Positions 2,967 through 64,000 of a DNA stretch of 64,000 nucleotides are shown here, one piece after another (position 1 is the first letter of the stretch; each line of letters starts with the position of its first letter). The translations under genes and the position numbers were made by a program. Below the pieces are notes generated by a model that did not search any database, was not told where the DNA came from, and worked only from the letters and a program-made list of their open reading frames with translations. The stretch spans positions 1,426,001 through 1,490,000 of the forward strand of contig NZ_CP045245.1 in the NCBI RefSeq assembly GCF_009720485.1. The letters run 5' to 3'. This DNA is from Cellulomonas sp. JZ18. GTDB lineage: Bacteria; Actinomycetota; Actinomycetes; Actinomycetales; Cellulomonadaceae.

Positions 2967-3331
2967 CACCCGCGGTCCGCGCCAGGGCGAACGGTGCCGT
3001 GAGTCCGTCGAGGGTCCGCACCACGGCGCCCCGTCGCGCGCGTGGCCGTCGCGTCCTCGACGCGCACCGTCGAGGTGCGGACCGTCACTGCCGCGACGGG
3101 CACCGGCGCGATCGTCCGCCCGCACTCGGGGCACGTGCCTCGACGTCTCCGGGTGGGGTACGGCGGACGGCACACGGGTGCACGGACCGCCGGCATGGAG
3201 GCCGCCGACGGTGAGCGCCACCGACCGCGGACCGGGACGTGAGCCCGGCCGCCCGGGCACCGCCGTCGGCACCGTCGGGGAGAACGCCGTCACCGGTGTG
3301 CGGCGCTGGGCGGCCCTGCCAGAGTGGGCGC
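2967..3331. other. Intergenic region without a supported gene
   Basis: No convincing coding region. A minus-strand ORF (2930-3196) contains CPECGR but has no ribosome site, only one Cys pair and runs through the MarR promoter, so it is not called. A 10-base inverted repeat GGTCCGCACC / GGTGCGGACC lies at 3013-3022 and 3072-3081. The end holds the probable leaderless promoter of the PAP2 gene (CAGAGT six bases before the GTG). Confidence 0.5.
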
Positions 3332-4294
3332 GTGGACGATCACACCGAGTCATCGACGGATCACGCCGTGCTGGACGAGTCCGCGAGCCGTGCGGTCGTA
3401 CGGCGGTGGTGGCTGCTGGTCGGCGTCGGCACGGTGGTGCTCGTCGCCTCCTACGTCGGGCTGGTGCTGACACCGGCGGGACAGGCGGTCGAGAACGCCG
3501 CGCTGCGCGGCGCCGACCAGGTCGGCGCGCAGGAGCGCGTCGAGTCCGACGACGCCCTGGCCGGCATCACCGTGTTCTCGCTCGCGGTCGCGTGCGCGCT
3601 CATCGCCCTGGTCGGTCTGCTGCGCCGCTCGGTGGCGCTCGCCGCCGCGGCGCTCGGGACGGTCGTCGTCGGGCTGCTCGTCGCCGAGGCGCTCAAGCGC
3701 GTGGTGCTGCCGCGTCCGGCGCTGGTGGAGGCGACGCCGGGGTACACCGGGAACAGCTTCCCGAGCGGGCACACGGCGATCGCCCTCGGCGTGCTCGCCG
3801 CCGCGCTGCTGCTCGCGACGTGGCGGTCCCGCGGGGTCGTGATGTTCTTCCTGGCGAGCTGGGCGGTGGCGATCGCGGGGTACACGATCACGTCGAAGTG
3901 GCACCGGCTCAGCGACACGCTCGGGTCGGCAGGGATCACGCTCGTCGTGGCGTCCCTCGCCGCGCTGTGGCTGCACCGGCGCGGGATGGTCCGACGTGTC
4001 ACGGCCGGCGGGCACCGCGCGCGTCTGGTCCTGGTCGTCGCCCCGCTCGTCCTGTCGCTGCTCGCGACCGTCGGGCTCGGTGGCGCGCTGCTGGTGCTCA
4101 CGGGGGACCTGCTCGACCGGGACCCCGTCACGGACGACAACGTGTTCCTGGCGTTCCAGCTGCTGGCCGTGGCGGGATCGACGGCGACCGCACTCGCCCT
4201 GTGGTGGAGCTGGCACCGTCTCGAGGTCGTGACGCCGGCCCCACCGCCACCCCCGGCGACGGCGGCCGAGGCGACCCAGGACGCCACCGCGTGA
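3332..4294 (+). CDS. PAP2-superfamily membrane phosphatase
   Basis: 320 residues with about seven hydrophobic helices. The PAP2 motifs are partly visible: LKRVVLPRP (a C1-like motif, one residue shorter than the usual K-x6-RP), NSFPSGHTA (C2 PSGH, intact) and SKWHRLSD (C3-like H-x3-D, lacking the upstream Arg of the classical motif). Family members dephosphorylate lipid pyrophosphates or phosphatidic acid at the membrane. Start GTG 3332 is chosen because the preceding bases resemble a leaderless -10 and hydrophobicity begins soon after. The C-terminal tail is Pro/Ala-rich. Activity is likely but the altered C1/C3 motifs leave some doubt. Confidence 0.8.
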   Translation: MDDHTESSTDHAVLDESASRAVVRRWWLLVGVGTVVLVASYVGLVLTPAGQAVENAALRGADQVGAQERVESDDALAGITVFSLAVACALIALVGLLRRSVALAAAALGTVVVGLLVAEALKRVVLPRPALVEATPGYTGNSFPSGHTAIALGVLAAALLLATWRSRGVVMFFLASWAVAIAGYTITSKWHRLSDTLGSAGITLVVASLAALWLHRRGMVRRVTAGGHRARLVLVVAPLVLSLLATVGLGGALLVLTGDLLDRDPVTDDNVFLAFQLLAVAGSTATALALWWSWHRLEVVTPAPPPPPATAAEATQDATA

Positions 4295-4634
4295 CCCGCC
4301 CGACGGCCTTGCGGCGCGACCCGGGGCGCTGATGCTGGACGGCCTCGTCGCCGGGGTGGTCGGCATGAACCGGTTCGCCCGTGCTCGTCGTCGCCCGTGC
4401 GCGGGGGCCTCGACGCGACCGCGGGAAGGGGCTGGCGCTGCGCCCCGACCCGGGACGGTCCTCGTCAGGGTGGCTCTGCACAACCGCGACGGAGACCGGC
4501 AGCTGGCGGACGAGGCCGAGCGCCAGGACCCGCACGTACGCGCGAGGACTGCCGTGCGCCGACCAGCGGGTGGGACCCTCCTCAGCCGCTGGGGGTCCGT
4601 GCTCGGTGCTCGAGGGCCGCGCTACGGTCCTCCC
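4295..4634. other. Intergenic region, no gene supported
   Basis: About 340 bases between the PAP2 and VOC genes. Open frames here are the stop-poor frames typical of very high GC and show no family signature, ribosome site or codon pattern. The last bases carry TACGGT (4623-4628), the likely -10 of the leaderless VOC gene. Confidence 0.5.
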
Positions 4635-5003
4635 GTGATCGGGAGCATCGACGAGGTCGTCATCGACTGCGCGGACCCGGGCGCGCTCGCCACATTCTGG
4701 TCGACGGTGCTCGGTGGCGAGCCCGTCCGACGCGACGACGCGTGGTGGTACGTCCTGCCGCCGGGGTGGACGCAGCTGTCGTTCCAGAGGGTGCCGGAGC
4801 CGAAGACGGTGAAGAACCGCGTGCACCTCGACGTCCGCGTCGACGACATCGCGAGCGCCACCGCCCAGGCGGAGGCCGTCGGCGCACGGCGCGTGGGCGA
4901 CGTGCACCACGACCGGGCCGGCTCGTTCCAGGTGCTGCACGACCCGGAGGGCAACGAGTGGTGCCTGGTCCGGCCGGCGCCGCCGGGTGCCGCTGGCGGG
5001 TAG
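4635..5003 (+). CDS. Small VOC-family (glyoxalase-like) protein
   Basis: 122 residues: one VOC fold of the actinobacterial glyoxalase-like type (IDEVVIDCADPGALATFWS at the start, VHLDVRVDDI in the middle, VLHDPEGNEWCLV at the end). Such proteins are usually of unknown substrate; some bind antibiotics or act on small metabolites. The GTG is six bases after a TACGGT -10, so it should be leaderless. It is transcribed towards the sigma factor gene and stands alone. Confidence 0.82.
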   Translation: MIGSIDEVVIDCADPGALATFWSTVLGGEPVRRDDAWWYVLPPGWTQLSFQRVPEPKTVKNRVHLDVRVDDIASATAQAEAVGARRVGDVHHDRAGSFQVLHDPEGNEWCLVRPAPPGAAGG

Positions 5004-5205: not shown

Positions 5206-6471
5206 TCAGCCCGGTGGGGCGTCGGCGGGCGCCGACGGCTCGCGCCTGAGCGCTGCGCGGCGTCGGCGCAGCAGGGCATTGTCGGCGGCGGCCGGCGCCA
5301 GCGCGATCGCCCGGTCGTAGGCCAGGGACGCGGCCTCGTCCTCTCCGAGGCGCTCCAGCATCCCGGCCTGCGCGGCGTGGAAGAGGTGGTAGCCGTCGAG
5401 GTCGGGCGTCAGCGCCTGGAGCGTGGCGAGCGCGGCCTGCGGTCCAGCCGTCTCGGCCAGGGCGATCGCCCGGTTCATCGCGACGACCGGGGTGGGCGTG
5501 CGGGAGAGCAGCCGGTCGTAGAGCCGGACGATCGTCGCCCAGTCGGTCTCGCCGTGGGACGGTGCGGCGCAGTGGACCGCCTGGATGGCGGCCTGCAGGG
5601 CGAACGAGCCGGGGTGGGGGTGGCGCAGGGCGGCCAGGACGCGCCGCTGCCCCTCCCTGATCAGGGTCGGGTCCCACCGGGTGCGGTCCTGGTCGGCAAG
5701 GAGCACCACCTCTCCGTCGGCGTCCGACCTGCCGCGCAGGCGTGCGTCGTTCAGCAGCACGAGGGCGAGGAGCCCGTCGACCTCGGGTTCGTCGGGCATG
5801 AGCGCGCGCAGCTCGCGCGCGAGACGGACGGCCTCCGCTCGGAGCCCTGCGCGAGCGGGGTCGTCGGCCCCGGCGTTGTAGATCAGGTAGATGACGGTGA
5901 GGGCGGCCTGCAGGCGGCCGGGCAGCTCGGCTTCGGTCGGCACTCGGTAGGGGATGCGGGCCGCCCTGATCGTGGTCCTGGCTCGCGTCAGCCGTTTGGC
6001 CATGGTCGCCTCGCTCACGAGGAAGGCGCGGGCGATCTCGCCCGGGGTCAGGCCGGCGATCAGCCGGAGGGTGAGCGCGACCTGGTGCTCGGGGCGCAGC
6101 GACGGGTGGCAGCACGTGAAGACCAGCCGCAGCCGGTCGTCGTCGACGACGCCCTCCGCCTCCCCCTCGTCGACCGGCTCCACCCGGTCCTGGCGCAGCG
6201 GGTCCCGCGCCTGCTCCTCGGTGAGCTGCCGTCCTCGCGTCTCGCGGCGCACCACGTCGACCGCGCGGTTGCGTGCGGTCGCCACGATCCACCCCGCCGG
6301 GTTGGCCGGGACGCCGTCCCGCGGCCAGGTCTCCATGGCGCGCACGAAGGCGTCCTGCACGGCGTCCTCGGCGAGTGCGACGTCCCCGAAGACGCGGACG
6401 AGCGTGGCGACCGCCCGGCCGTGGGCGCGACGGAAGGCGGCCGTGAGCTCGTCCGCCCCCACCGAGCTCAC
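5206..6471 (-). CDS. ECF42-type RNA polymerase sigma factor with C-terminal TPR-like extension
   Basis: 421 residues. Region 2 lies at about 8-80 (LAEDAVQDAFVRAMETWP, GWIVATARNRAVDVVRRE) and region 4 at about 115-165 (HQVALTLRLIAGLTPGEIARAFLVSEATMAKRLTRAR). A 240-residue helical TPR-like extension follows, typical of the ECF42 group, which lacks an anti-sigma factor and is encoded with a YCII/DGPF protein. That partner is directly upstream: its TGA overlaps this GTG (GTGA). The C-terminal extension is thought to control activity in place of an anti-sigma factor; the signal is unknown. Confidence 0.93.
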   Translation of the reverse strand: MSSVGADELTAAFRRAHGRAVATLVRVFGDVALAEDAVQDAFVRAMETWPRDGVPANPAGWIVATARNRAVDVVRRETRGRQLTEEQARDPLRQDRVEPVDEGEAEGVVDDDRLRLVFTCCHPSLRPEHQVALTLRLIAGLTPGEIARAFLVSEATMAKRLTRARTTIRAARIPYRVPTEAELPGRLQAALTVIYLIYNAGADDPARAGLRAEAVRLARELRALMPDEPEVDGLLALVLLNDARLRGRSDADGEVVLLADQDRTRWDPTLIREGQRRVLAALRHPHPGSFALQAAIQAVHCAAPSHGETDWATIVRLYDRLLSRTPTPVVAMNRAIALAETAGPQAALATLQALTPDLDGYHLFHAAQAGMLERLGEDEAASLAYDRAIALAPAAADNALLRRRRAALRREPSAPADAPPG

Positions 6472-6836
6472 CCCTGCAGGCGTCCGGTGGCGCGGAACGG
6501 GCGCACCTCGACCGGGTGGCCGGTGGCTGCGCTCGTGCGGGCCGCCCAGTCCAGGGCCTCGTCGAGGTCCGCCGCGTTGATCACGTAGAACCCGGCGACG
6601 TGCTCCTTCCCCTCCACGAACGGTCCGTCGGTGGTCACCCTGTCGAGACCGCTGCGGACGACGGTCGCCGTGTCGGGGCCGTGCAGCGCGCCGCCGAAGA
6701 CGAGGGCGCCCGCTGCGTCCATCTGCTCCTCCAGTGCGACGACCTCGGACATGAAGGCCTGCATCTCCTCGGGCGTCGTCGGTGCGCCCTCGACCACGCC
6801 ATCGACCTCGTGCACGGACAGCAGGTACTGGTTCAT
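6468..6836 (-). CDS. YCII/DGPF-domain protein, partner of ECF42 sigma factor
   Basis: 122 residues with the YCII-related pattern: MNQYLLSVHEVDG at the start, DGPFVEGKEHVAGFYVINA in the middle and VEVRPF near the end. DGPF-type YCII proteins are the constant neighbours of ECF42 sigma factors; their biochemical function is not established. The ATG has AAGGAG upstream. The GTGA overlap with the sigma gene implies coupled translation. Confidence 0.92.
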   Translation of the reverse strand: MNQYLLSVHEVDGVVEGAPTTPEEMQAFMSEVVALEEQMDAAGALVFGGALHGPDTATVVRSGLDRVTTDGPFVEGKEHVAGFYVINAADLDEALDWAARTSAATGHPVEVRPFRATGRLQG

Positions 6837-7154
6837 GCCGACTCCTTCTCCGCGAGCGCGAGGACCTCTCGCACCAGTCTGATGACGAACGGGGCGCCGC
6901 CAGAAGGACACGACCACGGCGACGTGGCCGGTCCCTCCCTCCGGTGCCGCTCCGCGTCCGCTGGGCGTGCGGAGCGAGCCGCGGCTCGTGACGGCCCCGA
7001 GGTCTGTCCTGAGCCGGATCGAGGGCCGTCGGGACCAGGGGGGGCCGTGGTTGGGCCTTCCGGTCGCGGACGGTAGCGCCGCGATCCCTCGACCGTGTGA
7101 CCGGCGCGCGTGTGCGGCCGGGCGTGCTCACGTACGTGCTCGTACCCTGCGGAC
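6837..7154. other. Divergent intergenic region
   Basis: Lies between the leftward YCII-sigma operon and the rightward phosphatase gene. The right end has TACCCT (7143-7148), a leaderless -10 for the phosphatase. A minus-strand reading frame ends in an ATGA overlap with the YCII start, but its body shows no family and is not called. Otherwise nothing recognisable. Confidence 0.45.
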
Positions 7155-9293
7155 ATGGGGGCGGGGAGAGCGGCACGGCGCACCGGCGCGGAGGCCTGGG
7201 ACGCGGGCGGGAGCGGGCCCGGCGAGCGTGACCTCGTGCGCACGCTCGCCTGGGCGCTCGTGTACTCCGCGGCCGCGGCGCTGGGCCGCATGACCGTCGT
7301 CGGGGACGCGGGCGTGAGCCTGGTGTCGCCCGCAGCCGGCGTGTCGGTGCTGTGGCTGGTCGCGCGTGCGCGGCCGTGGCCGTGGGTGGACGTCGCGGCG
7401 CTCTGGCTGACCAGCCTCCTCGTCCTCGTGCTCACCGGCGAGGGGGCGGCCTCCGCGCTGCTGCTGGCGACCGCGGTGACGCTGCAGGCGGTGCTGTGCG
7501 TCGCCGTGCTCGAACGCTTCGCGCCGCACCTGTGGGCCGGGCGGGGACGCGTGCCCCTGGGACGCCTGTCGGACCTGTGGTGGCTCCTCCTCGGTGCCGG
7601 GGGAGCGGCAGTCCTCAGCGCGCCGCTCGCCCAGGTGGCCGTGCACGTGGGTGCCGGCGGCTCGACGTGGGACACCCCGCTGCTGTGGTTCGCGCGCAAC
7701 ACGGTGAGCGTCGTGACGATCGTGCCGCTCGGCTGGACGTTCGGCGCCTGGCTGGTCGGGCGCCGCGCGCGGGGCACGCTGCGGCAGCCCTCGGACCGGC
7801 GGACGGACGGCCGTGCCGCGGACCGCCTCGTCGCGCTCGTGCTCGCTCCTGTGGCGTACCTGCTGTGGTTCCTGCAGGGCACGCAGCCGGCGGTGGTGTT
7901 CCCGCTGATCGGCCTCACGGTGTGGGCGGGGTCGCGGCTGCCGGCCCGCTGGGTCGTCCTGCACACGACGCTGTGCGGAGGAGTGGTCGTCCAGCTGACC
8001 CTCATGGGCAGCGGCCCGTTCGCGCACCTGGACGACCCGGTCACGCAGATCGGCGTGGCGCAGCTGTACGTGGGTCTCCTGGCGGTCATCGGTCTGGCGC
8101 TCGCCCTCGCGGGCGAGGAGCGCCGCCAGCTCGTGCGGGAGCTGTCGACGGCGCGCGACCGGGCCCAGGAGCAGGCCGCGCTGCTGACCGCGGTCGTCGA
8201 CACGATGTCGGAGGGCGTGCGCGTCGTCGACGCCTCCGGTCGGGTGGTCGTGCGCAACCCGATCGCGGCGCGGCTGCTGGCGGGGACCTCGCACCTGGAC
8301 CCCGCCGACAGCACCAGCGACCTCGTGGGCCTGGCGCGGCCCGACGGGTCTCCGTTGCGCGAGGAGGAGCTGCCCTTCCGGCGTGCGCTGGCAGGGCACG
8401 AGGTACGCGACGTCGACCTGCTCGTGCGTGTGCCCGGCCAGTCGGAGCCCCGCTTCGTCAGCTTCTCGGCCACACCCATCCCGGCGGAGTCGGGCGGGGG
8501 TGTGGTCACCGTCCTGCGCGACGTGACGCTGCACCGCACGGAGCTGCGCCGCGCCGCGCAGGTCCAGGCGAGCCTGCTGCCCGCGCGCCGCCTGGAGGTC
8601 CCCGGGTTCGACCTCGCGGCGCGCTTCGTGCCCGCCGGCTCGGTCGGCGGCGACTTCTACGACTGGCAGCGGCTGCCCGGCGGGCTCGTCCTCACCATGG
8701 CCGACGTCATGGGCAAGGGGCCCGCGGCGGCGATCCTGGCGGCCACCACCCGCTCCGTCCTGCACGCGCACTCGGACCCCCAGGACGTGGCGGGCACGCT
8801 GACGGCCACCGAGCAGGCGATGGACGTCGACCTGGTGAACACCGGCGCGTTCGTGACGGTGTTCCACGCGTTCGTCGACGTCCGCGACGGGGAGGTCGCC
8901 TACACCGACGCGGGGCACGGCCTCTCGCTCGTCGTCCGGGCGGACGGCGGCGTCGAGCGGTTGGCGGCGACGGGGCTGCCGCTGGGTGTCGCCCCCGGGC
9001 CCGAGCGGGTCGAGGCGCGCACCCGCCTGCGCCCCGGCGACCTGCTGCTGACCTTCAGCGACGGCGTGCTCGACGCCCTGGGCGGGTCCGTCGCCGACCT
9101 CGACCAGGTGCCGCGGGCGGTACGGGGGGCGACCACGGCCGACGCCGCGGCGGAGGCCGTGCTCGCACTGGTCGGCGACACGGGGCACGCCGAGGACGAC
9201 CTCACCGTCCTCGCGCTGCGCCGCACCGCGCCGGTGGGCGCACCGGTCGTCCCCTCGCCGTCGTCCTGGGACGTGACCACGCGCTCGGCGTAG
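7155..9293 (+). CDS. MASE1-PAS-SpoIIE (PP2C) signalling phosphatase
   Basis: 712 residues. About 1-310: a MASE1-like sensor of about eight membrane helices. About 325-450: a PAS-type domain (LLTAVVDTMSEGVRVVDASG). About 465-705: a SpoIIE/RsbU PP2C phosphatase (VGGDFYDW, LTMADVMGKGPAAA, YTDAGHG, LLTFSDGVLDA carrying the metal Asp residues). Such proteins dephosphorylate anti-anti-sigma factors and so switch sigma-B-like responses. No partner kinase is encoded nearby. The ATG is six bases from TACCCT, so it is probably leaderless. The end is convergent with a dehydrogenase gene across a strong hairpin. Confidence 0.9.
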   Translation: MGAGRAARRTGAEAWDAGGSGPGERDLVRTLAWALVYSAAAALGRMTVVGDAGVSLVSPAAGVSVLWLVARARPWPWVDVAALWLTSLLVLVLTGEGAASALLLATAVTLQAVLCVAVLERFAPHLWAGRGRVPLGRLSDLWWLLLGAGGAAVLSAPLAQVAVHVGAGGSTWDTPLLWFARNTVSVVTIVPLGWTFGAWLVGRRARGTLRQPSDRRTDGRAADRLVALVLAPVAYLLWFLQGTQPAVVFPLIGLTVWAGSRLPARWVVLHTTLCGGVVVQLTLMGSGPFAHLDDPVTQIGVAQLYVGLLAVIGLALALAGEERRQLVRELSTARDRAQEQAALLTAVVDTMSEGVRVVDASGRVVVRNPIAARLLAGTSHLDPADSTSDLVGLARPDGSPLREEELPFRRALAGHEVRDVDLLVRVPGQSEPRFVSFSATPIPAESGGGVVTVLRDVTLHRTELRRAAQVQASLLPARRLEVPGFDLAARFVPAGSVGGDFYDWQRLPGGLVLTMADVMGKGPAAAILAATTRSVLHAHSDPQDVAGTLTATEQAMDVDLVNTGAFVTVFHAFVDVRDGEVAYTDAGHGLSLVVRADGGVERLAATGLPLGVAPGPERVEARTRLRPGDLLLTFSDGVLDALGGSVADLDQVPRAVRGATTADAAAEAVLALVGDTGHAEDDLTVLALRRTAPVGAPVVPSPSSWDVTTRSA

Positions 9294-60803: not shown

Positions 60804-61640
60804 ATGACGGTCCCCACGCGCACGCTCCTCGACGGCCTCGAGCTGCCGGTCATCGGCTTCGGCACCTACCCGCTCAAGGGGCACGACGGGGTGGAGGCGG
60901 TCCGGTCCGCGATCGACGTCGGCTACCGGCTCATCGACACGGCGTACAACTACGAGAACGAGGGGTCGGTCGGCGAGGCGGTGCGCCGCAGCGGCGTGCC
61001 GCGGGACGAGCTCGTCCTGTCCTCGAAGCTGCCCGGCCGCTACCACCGGCACGACGACGCGGTGCGCGCCGTGCACGAGTCGCTCTTCCGTGCGCGCCTC
61101 GACCACTGGGACCTCTACCTCATCCACTGGCCCAACCCGAAGCAGGGGCTGTTCGTCGAGGCGTTCGCGACCCTGCTCGAGCTGCAGCAGGCCGGGCTGA
61201 TCCGCTCCGTCGGGGTGTCGAACTTCCTGCCCGAGCACCTGCACGCCCTGCTCGACGCGACGGGCCGCGTGCCCAGCGTGAACCAGGTGGAGCTGCACCC
61301 GTACTTCGTGCAGCGCGAGCAGCGCGCGGCCGACGAGACGCTCGGCGTCGTCACGGAGGCCTGGAGCCCGCTGGGCCGCGGCTCGGACGTGCTCGAGGAC
61401 CCCACGGTCGTCGAGATCGCGCGGGCGCACGGCGTCGGACCGGGCGAGGTGATCCTGCGCTGGGTGACGCAGCTCGGCGCGGTGCCGCTGCCGAAGGCGG
61501 CCGACCCCGAGCGGCAGCGCCGCAACCTCGGGGTGCTGTCGTTCACGCTCTCCGACGACGAGGTCGGCGCGATCACCGCCCTCGACCGGCCGGACGGGCG
61601 CCTGCAGGACCAGGACCCGGCGGAGTACGAGGAGTTCTGA
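60804..61640 (+). CDS. Aldo/keto reductase
   Basis: 278 residues. The catalytic tetrad is complete: Asp45 and Tyr50 (LIDTAYNYENE), Lys75 (SSKLPG), His108 (LIHWPNP). VGVSNFLPEHL and the C-terminal VPLPKAADPERQRRNL form the NADPH-binding part. The closest group is the 2,5-diketo-gluconate reductase type. TAGCGT seven bases before the ATG indicates a leaderless message. It is the last intact native gene before the foreign segment. Confidence 0.93.
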   Translation: MTVPTRTLLDGLELPVIGFGTYPLKGHDGVEAVRSAIDVGYRLIDTAYNYENEGSVGEAVRRSGVPRDELVLSSKLPGRYHRHDDAVRAVHESLFRARLDHWDLYLIHWPNPKQGLFVEAFATLLELQQAGLIRSVGVSNFLPEHLHALLDATGRVPSVNQVELHPYFVQREQRAADETLGVVTEAWSPLGRGSDVLEDPTVVEIARAHGVGPGEVILRWVTQLGAVPLPKAADPERQRRNLGVLSFTLSDDEVGAITALDRPDGRLQDQDPAEYEEF

Positions 61641-61733: not shown

Positions 61734-61856
61734 ATGACCGCACCCGTCCGCATCGGCGTCCAGCTGCAGCCGCAGCACGCCGACTACGCCCAGATCCGCG
61801 ACGCCGTCCTGCGCGCCGAGGACCTCGGGGTCGACGTGATCTTCAACTGGGACTAG
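61734..61856 (+). pseudogene. LLM-class flavin/F420-dependent oxidoreductase, truncated after 40 codons by insertion
   Basis: A normal start (CCGGAGGAG then ATG) opens MTAPVRIGVQLQPQHADYAQ and continues to GVDVIFNWD, the conserved N-terminus of luciferase-like F420-dependent oxidoreductases. In intact relatives this continues with a His-rich segment and a further 240 or so residues. Here a TAG follows at once and base composition changes. The 3' part is expected on the far side of the inserted island. Confidence 0.85.
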
Positions 61857-61991
61857 TTGCTGACCCAGAGTGGGTATAAGACTGCAGACGCTCGCGCCTC
61901 CCAATACACCGGCCGATTGAGGGCAGAGGCGCACGCGAACGCCTGCGCGGCTAGCGCAGCGCAGCGCAGCGACATATGGGAAGGAAGGCGC

Positions 61992-63224
61992 GTGGCGAAC
62001 GACCCAACACCATGGCCAGAGCTCGAAGACGCGTTCAGCGGAGTCCTCATCAAAGTCCTTGCCGTCGAAGATGATCGACGTGCCTTCTTGGGTCGATACC
62101 TGAATGGGAACGTTGCACGGTTTCAATACGAGGATGAGGTCGAATTCGAGCGCGGTGACGTCATCGTGGCCAACGATCAGGCATGGAGGCTTGCTCCTTC
62201 AAAGTCGTGGCCCGACGACACGCGCATCGGGATCGTTAGGCGGATCACGAAGGACGCGGTAGTCGTCGACGGGCCGACCGGTCTCCAAATGCTCGATGGG
62301 CAGGTGGATCCGAACCTCCAAGTCGGAAACACGGTCCAATACGACGATTACAGTGGCATTCGGCAGGTGGTCTCATCAACGCCGTTGAGGCCGCGCGAGA
62401 ACGACCTGGACGAGTCCCTCGCGGAATACCGCGCGAGCGTCGGGACGGGCGGAGAGTCCGGATTCCACTCGTTCGGGGGCTATAAGGACGTCATCGCCCG
62501 CGCTCGTGAACTGATCGAGACGCAACTTGAACGCCGTGAGGACTTAGATTCGATCGGCGCCCAACCGGTTCGTGGCGTCATCTTCACCGGCCCTCCCGGA
62601 ACCGGAAAGACCCACCTCGCACGCGCGATTGCTGCGGAAGCTTCAGCGGAGTTCTACGTAGTCAGCGGCCCCGCGGTGGTCAGCAAGTGGGTGGGCGACA
62701 GTGAGCAGACGCTCAGGAGACTCTTTGAAGCAGCATCGAAGGATGATCGAGCGATTATATTCTTCGACGAGATCGACAGCATTGCCGCCAAGCGGAGCAG
62801 TGACTCGCAGGGCGACGCTAAGCGGCTCGTAGCACAGTTGCTAACGCTGCTGGACGGGTTCACGGAGACCGGCAACATCATCGTCATCGCCGCGACAAAC
62901 CGTATCGAAGATGTCGATGAAGCTCTCCTTCGGCCAGGGCGGTTCGATTGGGAAATCGAATTCGGTCTGCCCAGCCGAGACGATCGCTTACAGATACTCC
63001 GCGTCCGGTCGGCTTCGCTATCGACCGAACAGGATCTCCCCTTGAACGAGTTGGCATCGATGACAGAAGGGTGGTCTGGGGCCGAATTGTCCGCTATCTG
63101 GACCGAGGCCGCTCTTGCGGCAGCGAAGGATCGGCGCCGTGCCATCTCGGCGGAGGATCTCGCTCTAGCATTTGAGCGCGTTGCTACCCGCCCGGAGCGC
63201 GTTCGATCCGGGGGAACTTCGTGA
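61992..63224 (+). CDS. PAN/CDC48-like AAA ATPase of an inserted island
   Basis: 410 residues from GTG 61992, with GGAAGGAAGG upstream. The N-terminal 130 residues are beta-rich and resemble the OB-type interdomain of proteasomal ATPases (FERGDVIVANDQAWRL, VVDGPTGLQML). The AAA domain has Walker A GPPGTGKT (200-207), Walker B IIFFDEID (Asp259, Glu260), sensor 1 VIAATN and the Arg finger region RPGRFD, then a normal lid. All catalytic residues are present. A single AAA ring ATPase with such an N-domain probably unfolds or remodels proteins. Its TGA overlaps the start of the next gene. Confidence 0.88.
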   Translation: MANDPTPWPELEDAFSGVLIKVLAVEDDRRAFLGRYLNGNVARFQYEDEVEFERGDVIVANDQAWRLAPSKSWPDDTRIGIVRRITKDAVVVDGPTGLQMLDGQVDPNLQVGNTVQYDDYSGIRQVVSSTPLRPRENDLDESLAEYRASVGTGGESGFHSFGGYKDVIARARELIETQLERREDLDSIGAQPVRGVIFTGPPGTGKTHLARAIAAEASAEFYVVSGPAVVSKWVGDSEQTLRRLFEAASKDDRAIIFFDEIDSIAAKRSSDSQGDAKRLVAQLLTLLDGFTETGNIIVIAATNRIEDVDEALLRPGRFDWEIEFGLPSRDDRLQILRVRSASLSTEQDLPLNELASMTEGWSGAELSAIWTEAALAAAKDRRRAISAEDLALAFERVATRPERVRSGGTS

Positions 63225-64000
63225 ACATTCGTCAGTGGCCGTCGAGGTTCAGGAGGTGGCGCTTCGAGCGCCAGCGCTCGAAGCGTCTCAAGAGCGCGGC
63301 TGGGTCCCAGGCAGAGACCCCACCTTTGCGAGAGTTCGTCTACCTCGATGCGGTGAGTCTCCAGAGTCTTCTCGTGTCGCAAGCGATGACTATCCCCGAG
63401 TCGGTGATGCTTGCCGCGGGGCGCGGTAGCGAGGCGGAGATCTCGAGTTCCCTCTCGGCGGACGCTCTGGTAGGTAGTGGCGAAGTCGCCGCGCGCTATC
63501 AGACTATGAGTTCTAGCAGCCAAGAAGTATCACGCCGCGCGTTGATCCAGAGCTCATTCAAGGAGTTTCGAGAACTGCCGCTCGAGTTCAAATTGTCGGA
63601 GTTTGACAAGCGAACGGCCGGTGGCTTCAGCATGCTCTCCGAGTTTGGGGTGAAGGCTGACGGACTTCGTCGAGGCGAGTTGGTTGAGATCGAGGTCATC
63701 TTAGAGGTCGACCCGGTCTACAAACTCGCCGCGATGGTGTCGGAATACTCCGAGATGGCGAACGCGTACCCGCAGATGTTCGAAGGCGGAGTCTTGGGAT
63801 TCCTTCGAGGCTCGCAGCCGATCATCAAGGTGCTACAGCGCTTTCTCGCTGGCTTGATTCCGATTCGAGCAACGGCCGCGAGTATCGTGGTGATCGAACA
63901 TGAGGGTCAGGAGTACGTGGCCGAGTCCGGCTCCGCTGGCCCTGATGTGCGCGAGCGACCGTTGCGGATCGTGGGGGTCACGGAGCAGCAGAACTACTGG
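63221..64000 (+). CDS. DUF6414-like protein, C-terminus beyond window
   Basis: 260 codons visible, open to the window edge. After a very basic start (RFRRWRFERQRSKRLK) comes REFVYLDAVSLQSLLVSQ, which resembles the DUF6414 opening. LSEFDKRTAGGFSMLSEFG and RRGELVEIEVILEVDPVYKL follow, then an amphipathic stretch and IVVIEHEGQEYV. The family has no known activity. The GTG overlaps the ATPase stop (GTGA), so the two are translated together and probably form one complex. The family assignment is from memory of its opening motif and is moderately secure. Confidence 0.7.
   Translation, partial: MNIRQWPSRFRRWRFERQRSKRLKSAAGSQAETPPLREFVYLDAVSLQSLLVSQAMTIPESVMLAAGRGSEAEISSSLSADALVGSGEVAARYQTMSSSSQEVSRRALIQSSFKEFRELPLEFKLSEFDKRTAGGFSMLSEFGVKADGLRRGELVEIEVILEVDPVYKLAAMVSEYSEMANAYPQMFEGGVLGFLRGSQPIIKVLQRFLAGLIPIRATAASIVVIEHEGQEYVAESGSAGPDVRERPLRIVGVTEQQNYW

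Follow-up and report, generated by a model that had tools for sequence, protein, structure and literature searches.

What is the two-gene unit that closes the 64,000-nucleotide stretch of Cellulomonas sp. JZ18 analysed here (contig NZ_CP045245.1, positions 1,426,001 to 1,490,000; hereafter the window), and how did it come to lie there? A preliminary description, made from the letters of the sequence, had placed at 61,857–64,000 an AAA ATPase gene coupled to a DUF6414-like gene, at the edge of a foreign island that had replaced a native gene, and had proposed a defence or conflict system. We found that the two genes form a co-inherited, mobile pair, which here occupies a small insert inside an oxidoreductase gene. 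The pair is probably a Dodola-like system of two genes that acts against phages, a reading that draws on domain content, on distribution and on the genes found nearby.

The AAA gene (61,992–63,224, plus strand) encodes a 410-amino acid ATPase of the classical AAA clade (CDC48/PAN/Rpt-like). Its start is most likely the GTG at 61,992, which has GGAAGG upstream, and not the TTG at 61,857 from which the preliminary description had counted the unit. The protein matched PF00004 with an expectation value (E) of 7.8e-43 and AAA_lid_3 at 1.1e-12. In an alignment of 43 rows (the window protein and 42 homologues), the Walker A residues G200, G203, G205, K206 and T207 were kept in 43/43 rows (GPPGTGKT, 62,589–62,612, plus strand, amino acids 200–207), as were D259 and E260 of the Walker B region (IIFFDEID, 62,754–62,777, plus strand, amino acids 255–262). 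The sensor T302-N303 and the arginines R314 and R317 are also present, and the residues tested were invariant, which agrees with the earlier statement that this is a PAN/CDC48-like ATPase with its catalytic residues intact. Position 233 in the pore loop, within the motif KWVG in the window protein, is aromatic in all 43 rows (38 Trp, 4 Tyr and 1 Phe). The structure model of the ATPase (predicted local distance difference test score, pLDDT, of 87) has ten strands within the N-terminal 130 residues, which may form two small barrels, and its best fold matches are the Rpt subunits of the 26S proteasome (E 1.8e-28, template-modelling score 0.57).

Regarding known ATPases, the window protein shares with PAN, Rpt, Mpa, ARC and p97 the AAA domain, the aromatic pore loop and a strand-rich N-terminal region, Rpt subunits being its best structural matches. 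Unlike them, it has a single AAA domain and falls under the PAN, pup_AAA and CDC48 cut-offs, scoring 248.5 of 500 bits for NF003069 (PAN) and 234.9 of 802.65 for TIGR01243 (CDC48) in NCBIfam. We saw no conserved C-terminal tail of the ATPase in a 12-row alignment. The protein also resembles IetA of the IetAS system, with matches to the PADLOC IetA model at 2e-38 and to NCBIfam NF042959 at 8.8e-33, but the latter reaches 113.9 bits where the curated cut-off is 510. In addition, its partner is DUF6414, and the insert has no third gene that could be the protease IetS.

The DUF6414 gene, of the long form, runs from 63,221 to the window end at 64,000 on the plus strand (its first 260 codons), and we confirmed the GTGA overlap with the AAA gene that had been described. 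Reading past the window, the full gene encodes 448 amino acids and stops at the equivalent of position 64,567. The assignment to DUF6414 held as well, with a PF19952 match of 8e-33 on the 259 amino acids within the window and of 1.3e-49 on the full gene. An AlphaFold2 model of a homologue (L070) has a mean pLDDT of 82, a predicted template-modelling score of 0.72, a mixed alpha/beta fold and a C-terminal strand. A sequence search of the PDB with the DUF6414 profile gave a best E of 0.059 and nothing convincing. The N-terminal tail is basic, with a median net charge of +6 over 54 proteins. At the other end, the long forms finish in hydrophobic-Tyr-Trp-stop in 67 of 70 loci, the exceptions being L111 and L115, where the frames end early, and L120, which reaches a contig end. 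This ending resembles the HbYX tail of proteasome activators, which we take as a lead only; the conserved C-terminus may simply be part of the fold, since the model puts it in a strand with high confidence.

The preliminary description had suggested a search for ATPase-DUF6414 pairs across genomes. Using a profile of 12 DUF6414 proteins as peptide patterns, with confirmation by tblastn, we obtained 70 long-form loci from 84,980 species genomes, and in 69 of them the gene immediately before DUF6414, on the same strand, is the AAA gene; the remaining locus (L126) begins at a contig end inside DUF6414. Among their sources, by record title, are Actinomycetota, Alphaproteobacteria, Chloroflexi, Acidobacteria, Polyangiaceae, Ignavibacterium and haloarchaea. 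Besides, 13 plasmid records match DUF6414, and the ATPase is directly upstream in the nine that were opened (all but H2, H10, H11 and H13), two of them by annotated name only. The AAA gene is likewise present beside four additional long forms from the host's family; three of these, together with the Rubrobacter and Halomarina plasmid records, overlap with the 70 loci. Of the 55 pairs whose spacing could be called, 48 are separated by no more than 10 nucleotides and 23 have a spacing of exactly −4, and the pairwise distances of AAA and DUF6414 proteins are correlated (r = 0.89, Mantel p = 0.001). Apart from these two, each neighbour family is limited to 8 of the 70 loci at most, and neither a conserved housekeeping location nor a lack of co-occurrence, either of which would have spoken against the earlier proposal, was what we found.

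The limits of similarity between related loci tell what moves. Microbacterium Leaf288 and Agromyces soli are 96% identical over 2,864 bp, comprising the pair and some 130 bp to either side, beyond which the sequences are unrelated. Five metagenome-assembled loci (L095, L102, L105, L113 and L119; titled mostly as Acidimicrobiia, L119 as Dehalococcoidia) have about 2.7 kb in common, which is the pair, and their similarity stops within about 25 bp 3' of the DUF6414 stop codon, L102 and L105 being also alike over 0.9 kb elsewhere. Copies that are 77% identical lie behind a type I system in L045 and a type III endonuclease in L068. In L071 and L072 the 90% similarity extends well beyond the pair, and restriction genes travelled along. 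According to these results, the AAA-DUF6414 pair is co-inherited and has spread as a unit of about 2.7–2.9 kb.

DUF6414 is DolA, one of the two Dodola proteins, as reportedly described by Millman et al. 2022, and we used a PADLOC match as the test. In the host's family, 12 of 221 genomes contain PF19952, as five long forms with an AAA gene, three Dodola-type forms and four other short forms; in these last four the AAA gene is absent, and one is in two pieces. The Dodola-type short forms are followed by another ATPase (G200, G043 and G102; loci L049, L050 and L052, respectively). The L049 pair matched the PADLOC models DolA at 4.5e-77 and DolB at 1.3e-132, and its DolA matched PF19952 at 1.9e-35. 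Those of L050 and L052 align to the L049 pair, the sole one scanned against PADLOC, at 54–64% identity. Four other long forms and three other short forms gave no DolA match with E up to 10. Regarding the C-termini of short-form proteins, two end in IYR and VYR and one in ALY, and the DolA-type forms differ. We also noted short DUF6414 genes without an adjoining AAA gene in L048, L051 and L054, two of which end in hydrophobic-Tyr-Arg, and what we read as a long relaxase-like frame in L049.

The window pair and Dodola are thus alike as two-gene units of a DUF6414 protein (PF19952) and an AAA+ ATPase, and unlike in other respects. The window ATPase combines PF00004 and AAA_lid_3 with a strand-rich N-terminus, whereas the best Pfam match of DolB is AAA_2 (2e-13), of the ClpB-like type; the order is AAA then DUF6414 here, and DUF6414 then ATPase in L049, L050 and L052; and DUF6414 proteins of the window type have about 450 amino acids, compared with 245. 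Because both PADLOC models missed the pair, the AAA clade is different and the order is reversed, we have not filed it as Dodola: judged from its sequence, it appears to be Dodola-like in composition and of a form outside the Dodola models of PADLOC 2.0.0.

As to Dodola itself, the passages on it in PMC12322248 describe broad protection against S. thermophilus phages, and those in PMC11514479 a two-gene system reported to be active on phage SPP1. The latter passages also mention weak nucleic-acid-binding matches for one Dodola protein and give a Clp-like match to DolA, so the protein names may be exchanged there.

To contextualize the defence reading, we looked at the genes around the pair. 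Restriction-modification genes lie upstream and in the same orientation in some of the loci: an endonuclease gene abuts the AAA gene in L068, and one gene stands between in L069, L071, L072 and L087. As a separate observation, a YgjP-like metallopeptidase family (from the Pfam counts) lies between the type I restriction gene and the pair in the latter four loci, and also near the restriction gene or the pair in L083. After setting aside by hand 7 of the 70 loci as apparent near-copies, we listed 211 nearest-neighbour proteins and scanned the first 150, from 46 loci. These match 201 PADLOC models, compared with 56 models for a control of 137/153 proteins and 18/20 regions, taken from one family only; such model counts are redundant and are not counts of proteins matched. 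In the PADLOC and Pfam scans, the latter covering the neighbours alone, these proteins match type I restriction enzymes (3/150), Gabija GajB (2), mads_3 (4) and Mrr-type domains (2), which agrees with defence without proving it.

Several of our results weigh against a defence system of the Dodola kind. Of the 70 loci, 8 have restriction-modification-like genes within 10 kb, compared with none of 20 control regions (Fisher p = 0.19), a weak enrichment from a comparison in which the queries came mostly from the same loci, 1,279 kb were searched against 240 kb and the controls were unmatched. The control regions themselves contain Wadjet-like and DISARM-like matches, and none of the defence families is frequent in the proteins next to the pair, the maximum for one PADLOC model being 4 of 150. 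The full 448-amino acid DUF6414 protein of the window matches no PADLOC family, and DolB is absent from the 12 PADLOC matches of the ATPase up to E 1. A profile comparison of the long forms with three DolA sequences, a very thin profile on one side, gave a probability of 1.1%, so that the Dodola link rests on PF19952, which covers both forms. We obtained no PDB fold match for DUF6414 at E up to 0.001 and, consequently, its role is a guess. Dodola, too, has had mixed success: the same passages state that it gave no protection from one vector (PMC12322248), and that against the phages used in the second study Dodola, like other stand-alone systems, had very little effect (PMC11514479). Hence, of the proposal that this is a defence or conflict system, the co-occurrence of the two families and the identity of the L049 short form with DolA are on its side, and the proposed enrichment near known defence genes came out as suggestive and non-significant. 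Regarding phages as a source, a tblastn search with DUF6414 through 50,697 phage records (E 1e-3) found nothing, and of 10 stretches matched by a pattern scan of viral contigs none was confirmed, so we rejected a phage origin of the pair.

One could argue that the unit is compact and mobile for another reason, namely that it is a plasmid or mobile-element maintenance or competition module, acting on incoming plasmids or as an addiction pair. The 13 plasmid records with DUF6414 relatives, and the integrases, recombinases or toxin-antitoxin genes near some plasmid copies, fit this explanation. Several of the 70 loci are titled as chromosomes though, some copies stand behind restriction-modification genes and the nearest named relative sharing this domain acts against phages, and we consider a plasmid module unlikely. 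Still less probable, indeed very unlikely, is a housekeeping pair for proteostasis or stress, with a PAN-like unfoldase and a substrate adaptor working apart from conflict: the ATPase is nearest to CDC48 and the proteasomal ATPases in both sequence and fold, but it scores below the NCBIfam cut-offs of PAN and CDC48, and the long-form pair is patchy (5 of 221 family genomes), has no conserved context and was recently transferred horizontally. An anti-phage system of the Dodola kind is therefore the reading that we prefer.

We then asked how the pair entered the Cellulomonas genome. The insert measures 3,060 bp as the core-to-core distance between two copies of TGGGAC, its right end being read from the whole genome. 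The left core is at 61,848–61,853 (plus strand) and the right one outside the window, at the equivalent of 64,908–64,913. The in-window part (61,854–64,000, no strand) continues for about 0.9 kb beyond the window end, and the stretch 61,857–64,000 makes up about two thirds of the insert. Its gene content is the AAA ATPase and DUF6414 only. As the preliminary description had noted, the composition drops: the GC content along the window falls from about 0.73–0.78 to 0.60, and the insert has 0.605 compared with 0.729 and 0.749 in the 1-kb flanks. The edge of a foreign island, instead, proved to be this short two-gene insert. We read the sequence beyond the window to the equivalent of genome position 1,495,000 and listed frames to 1,506,000; the insert stops, the GC content returns to normal, and we rejected a large island with an integrase past 64,000, as had been anticipated. 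Within the 3,060 bp, leaving the oxidoreductase end aside, the only other frame of at least 100 amino acids is antisense across the pair, and we found no integrase-sized frame, although the short intergenic parts were left out of the search for remnants.

The native gene had not been replaced, as first thought, but split. It encodes an LLM-class F420-dependent oxidoreductase, whose downstream part matches TIGR03856 at 2.9e-99, and it is interrupted after codon 40. The 5' stub (61,734–61,856, plus strand) has 40 codons followed by TAG, with the translation MTAPVRIGVQLQPQHADYAQIRDAVLRAEDLGVDVIFNWD. At the right, 3' of DUF6414, a likely ribosome-binding site and a GTG start open a second, recoded 5' end of the oxidoreductase gene, VEDRVKIAVQLQPQHADYSQIRDALRRAEDVGVDICMNWD, which continues into the remainder of the gene (HFFPL...). 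Across the 31 codons that were aligned, the left and right copies are identical at 24/31 residues and 64/93 bases, and their GC contents at third codon positions (GC3) are 1.00 and 0.58, respectively. In this single assembly the oxidoreductase frame breaks a few codons past the right junction (equivalent of about 64,908–64,960), a break that may be real or a sequencing error, so the gene may be non-functional in the host assembly. Uninterrupted copies are present in relatives. An ARAGORN call of tRNA-Asp at 61,203–61,293 (minus strand) was considered as an attachment site and rejected; it lies inside an aldo/keto reductase coding sequence and is probably a false call.

The 5' end of the oxidoreductase gene was detected in at least 170 of the 221 family genomes (E 1e-9), and in at least three it is interrupted at the same codon, after NWD: the window genome (G000), G002 and G013. 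All three have TGGGAC at both insert ends, and in G002 and G013 the left core occupies the same codon. The G002 insert (L027, G002:C23:392001-412000) is 11.7 kb long and contains, adjoining its right end at 3205–4686, a large serine recombinase gene with Resolvase (1.4e-16), Recombinase (5.1e-19) and zinc ribbon domains, far under the cut-off of the Ccr models; this element interrupts the oxidoreductase gene and does not restore its 5' end. The G013 insert, from another genus (L181, G013:C2:3547001-3562000), spans 2,285 bp at 6038–8323. We saw no recombinase gene in it; its cargo is a 295-amino acid frame without family assignment and a 164-amino acid frame on the other strand, and its recoded 5' end yields a complete 257-amino acid oxidoreductase frame. 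The idea that the G013 cargo is an abortive-infection gene was dropped for lack of Pfam or PADLOC support (best Pfam E 0.074).

Comparison with 17 native genes of relatives gave best nucleotide identities of 95% (G000) and 97% (G013) for the left stubs, and of 72% and 80%, respectively, for the right copies. The identity between the two right copies is no higher, at 70%, and thus gives no sign of a common origin for both inserts. Read by eye, the element ends of G002 and G013 show short inverted repeats around a central GA, which are weak in G000; inverted repeats around a central dinucleotide are the expected form of serine-integrase sites, and elements with large serine recombinases are able to rebuild the end of the gene they target. 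The inserts resemble staphylococcal cassette chromosome-type and other large serine recombinase elements in using a fixed site in a conserved gene, with a recombinase of the large serine type in G002, and differ from them in that neither the window insert nor that of G013 has a visible recombinase gene. Nor does the window insert show the integrase of its own that an integrative mobilizable or conjugative element has. An enzyme provided in trans may have moved this insert, or it may have lost its own recombinase.

A wider search for the oxidoreductase 5' end gave no match in phage records and two in plasmid records, with no annotated gene at the match; both look like normal chromosomal copies whose records were labelled as plasmids. 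Among 396 genomes of the order, at least 157 have a match and, besides the window genome, at least five count two. We read G229, G251, G521 and G552 as carrying paralogues rather than double 5' ends, the two matches being in long frames that are widely separated or on separate contigs, and G560, with two matches counted, shows one place among the matches listed. Separately, G437 has a TAG inside its 5'-end match. The junction DNA pattern was found in 16 viral contigs, none with the oxidoreductase; by our own reading, 15 of them share an unrelated phosphoesterase-looking frame, and the other (L143) has another unrelated frame.

The insert could also be explained by homologous or illegitimate recombination, not site-specific, with a donor carrying the pair upstream of the same oxidoreductase gene. 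The insert is without an integrase gene, and the right 5' end, with its GC3 of 0.58, resembles a fragment of a homologue with lower GC content. Both junctions nevertheless fall on TGGGAC, at the codon also used by the serine recombinase element of G002 and by the G013 insert, and chance would hardly bring two different cargoes, each accompanied by a second 5' end, to one codon. We regard this route as somewhat unlikely. In our proposal, the pair would instead have arrived as the 3,060-bp insert through recombination at a serine-integrase-type site in the oxidoreductase gene, bringing its own copy of the 5' end.

How an anti-phage pair of this kind would act is a matter for suggestion, and the exact mechanism that we outline is doubtful. 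The ATPase would form a hexameric ring and grip protein through its aromatic pore loop. DUF6414 would be its dedicated partner, as sensor or effector, and might bind phage or host nucleic acid, or membrane; we base this guess on the basic N-terminal tail and on a very weak, non-significant OB-type resemblance of the core (8 of the first 16 non-significant fold rows are PriB OB-fold chains, E 0.19–0.90). On infection, the ATPase would remodel DUF6414, or a phage protein bound to it, and phage growth would be stopped.

A broader interpretation is possible, and we offer it tentatively. DUF6414 would be a shared sensor or effector that evolution has joined, on two or more occasions, with AAA+ motors of different kinds, ClpB-like in Dodola and CDC48/PAN-like here, the latter pairing being a separate, unnamed defence system of bacteria and archaea; and the 2.3- and 3.1-kb cassettes without a recombinase, moved in trans by the enzyme of another element, would repair the gene they enter with a recoded 5' end. 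Regarding publications, the literature we searched, made up mostly of sources other than subscription journals and preprints, contained no paper with the word DUF6414 and none from 2025-26 joining Dodola, AAA, mechanism and structure.

The mechanism of Dodola is listed as unknown in the passages on it in PMC12322248, and a second pairing of DUF6414 with a motor would give a comparative handle on it: features common to both pairs must lie in DUF6414, and the differences would tell the purpose of the motor, which here belongs to a well-understood class, the unfoldase-type ATPases with an aromatic pore loop. Our results also point to DUF6414, a family of unknown function, as a fixed partner of ATPases. 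The most unusual part, which came to light beyond the coordinates first described, is the small type of insert, seen twice, with a recoded 5' end of the gene entered. This site suggests a route by which compact, defence-like cargo may enter a conserved gene without a recombinase of its own, carrying that gene's 5' end along.

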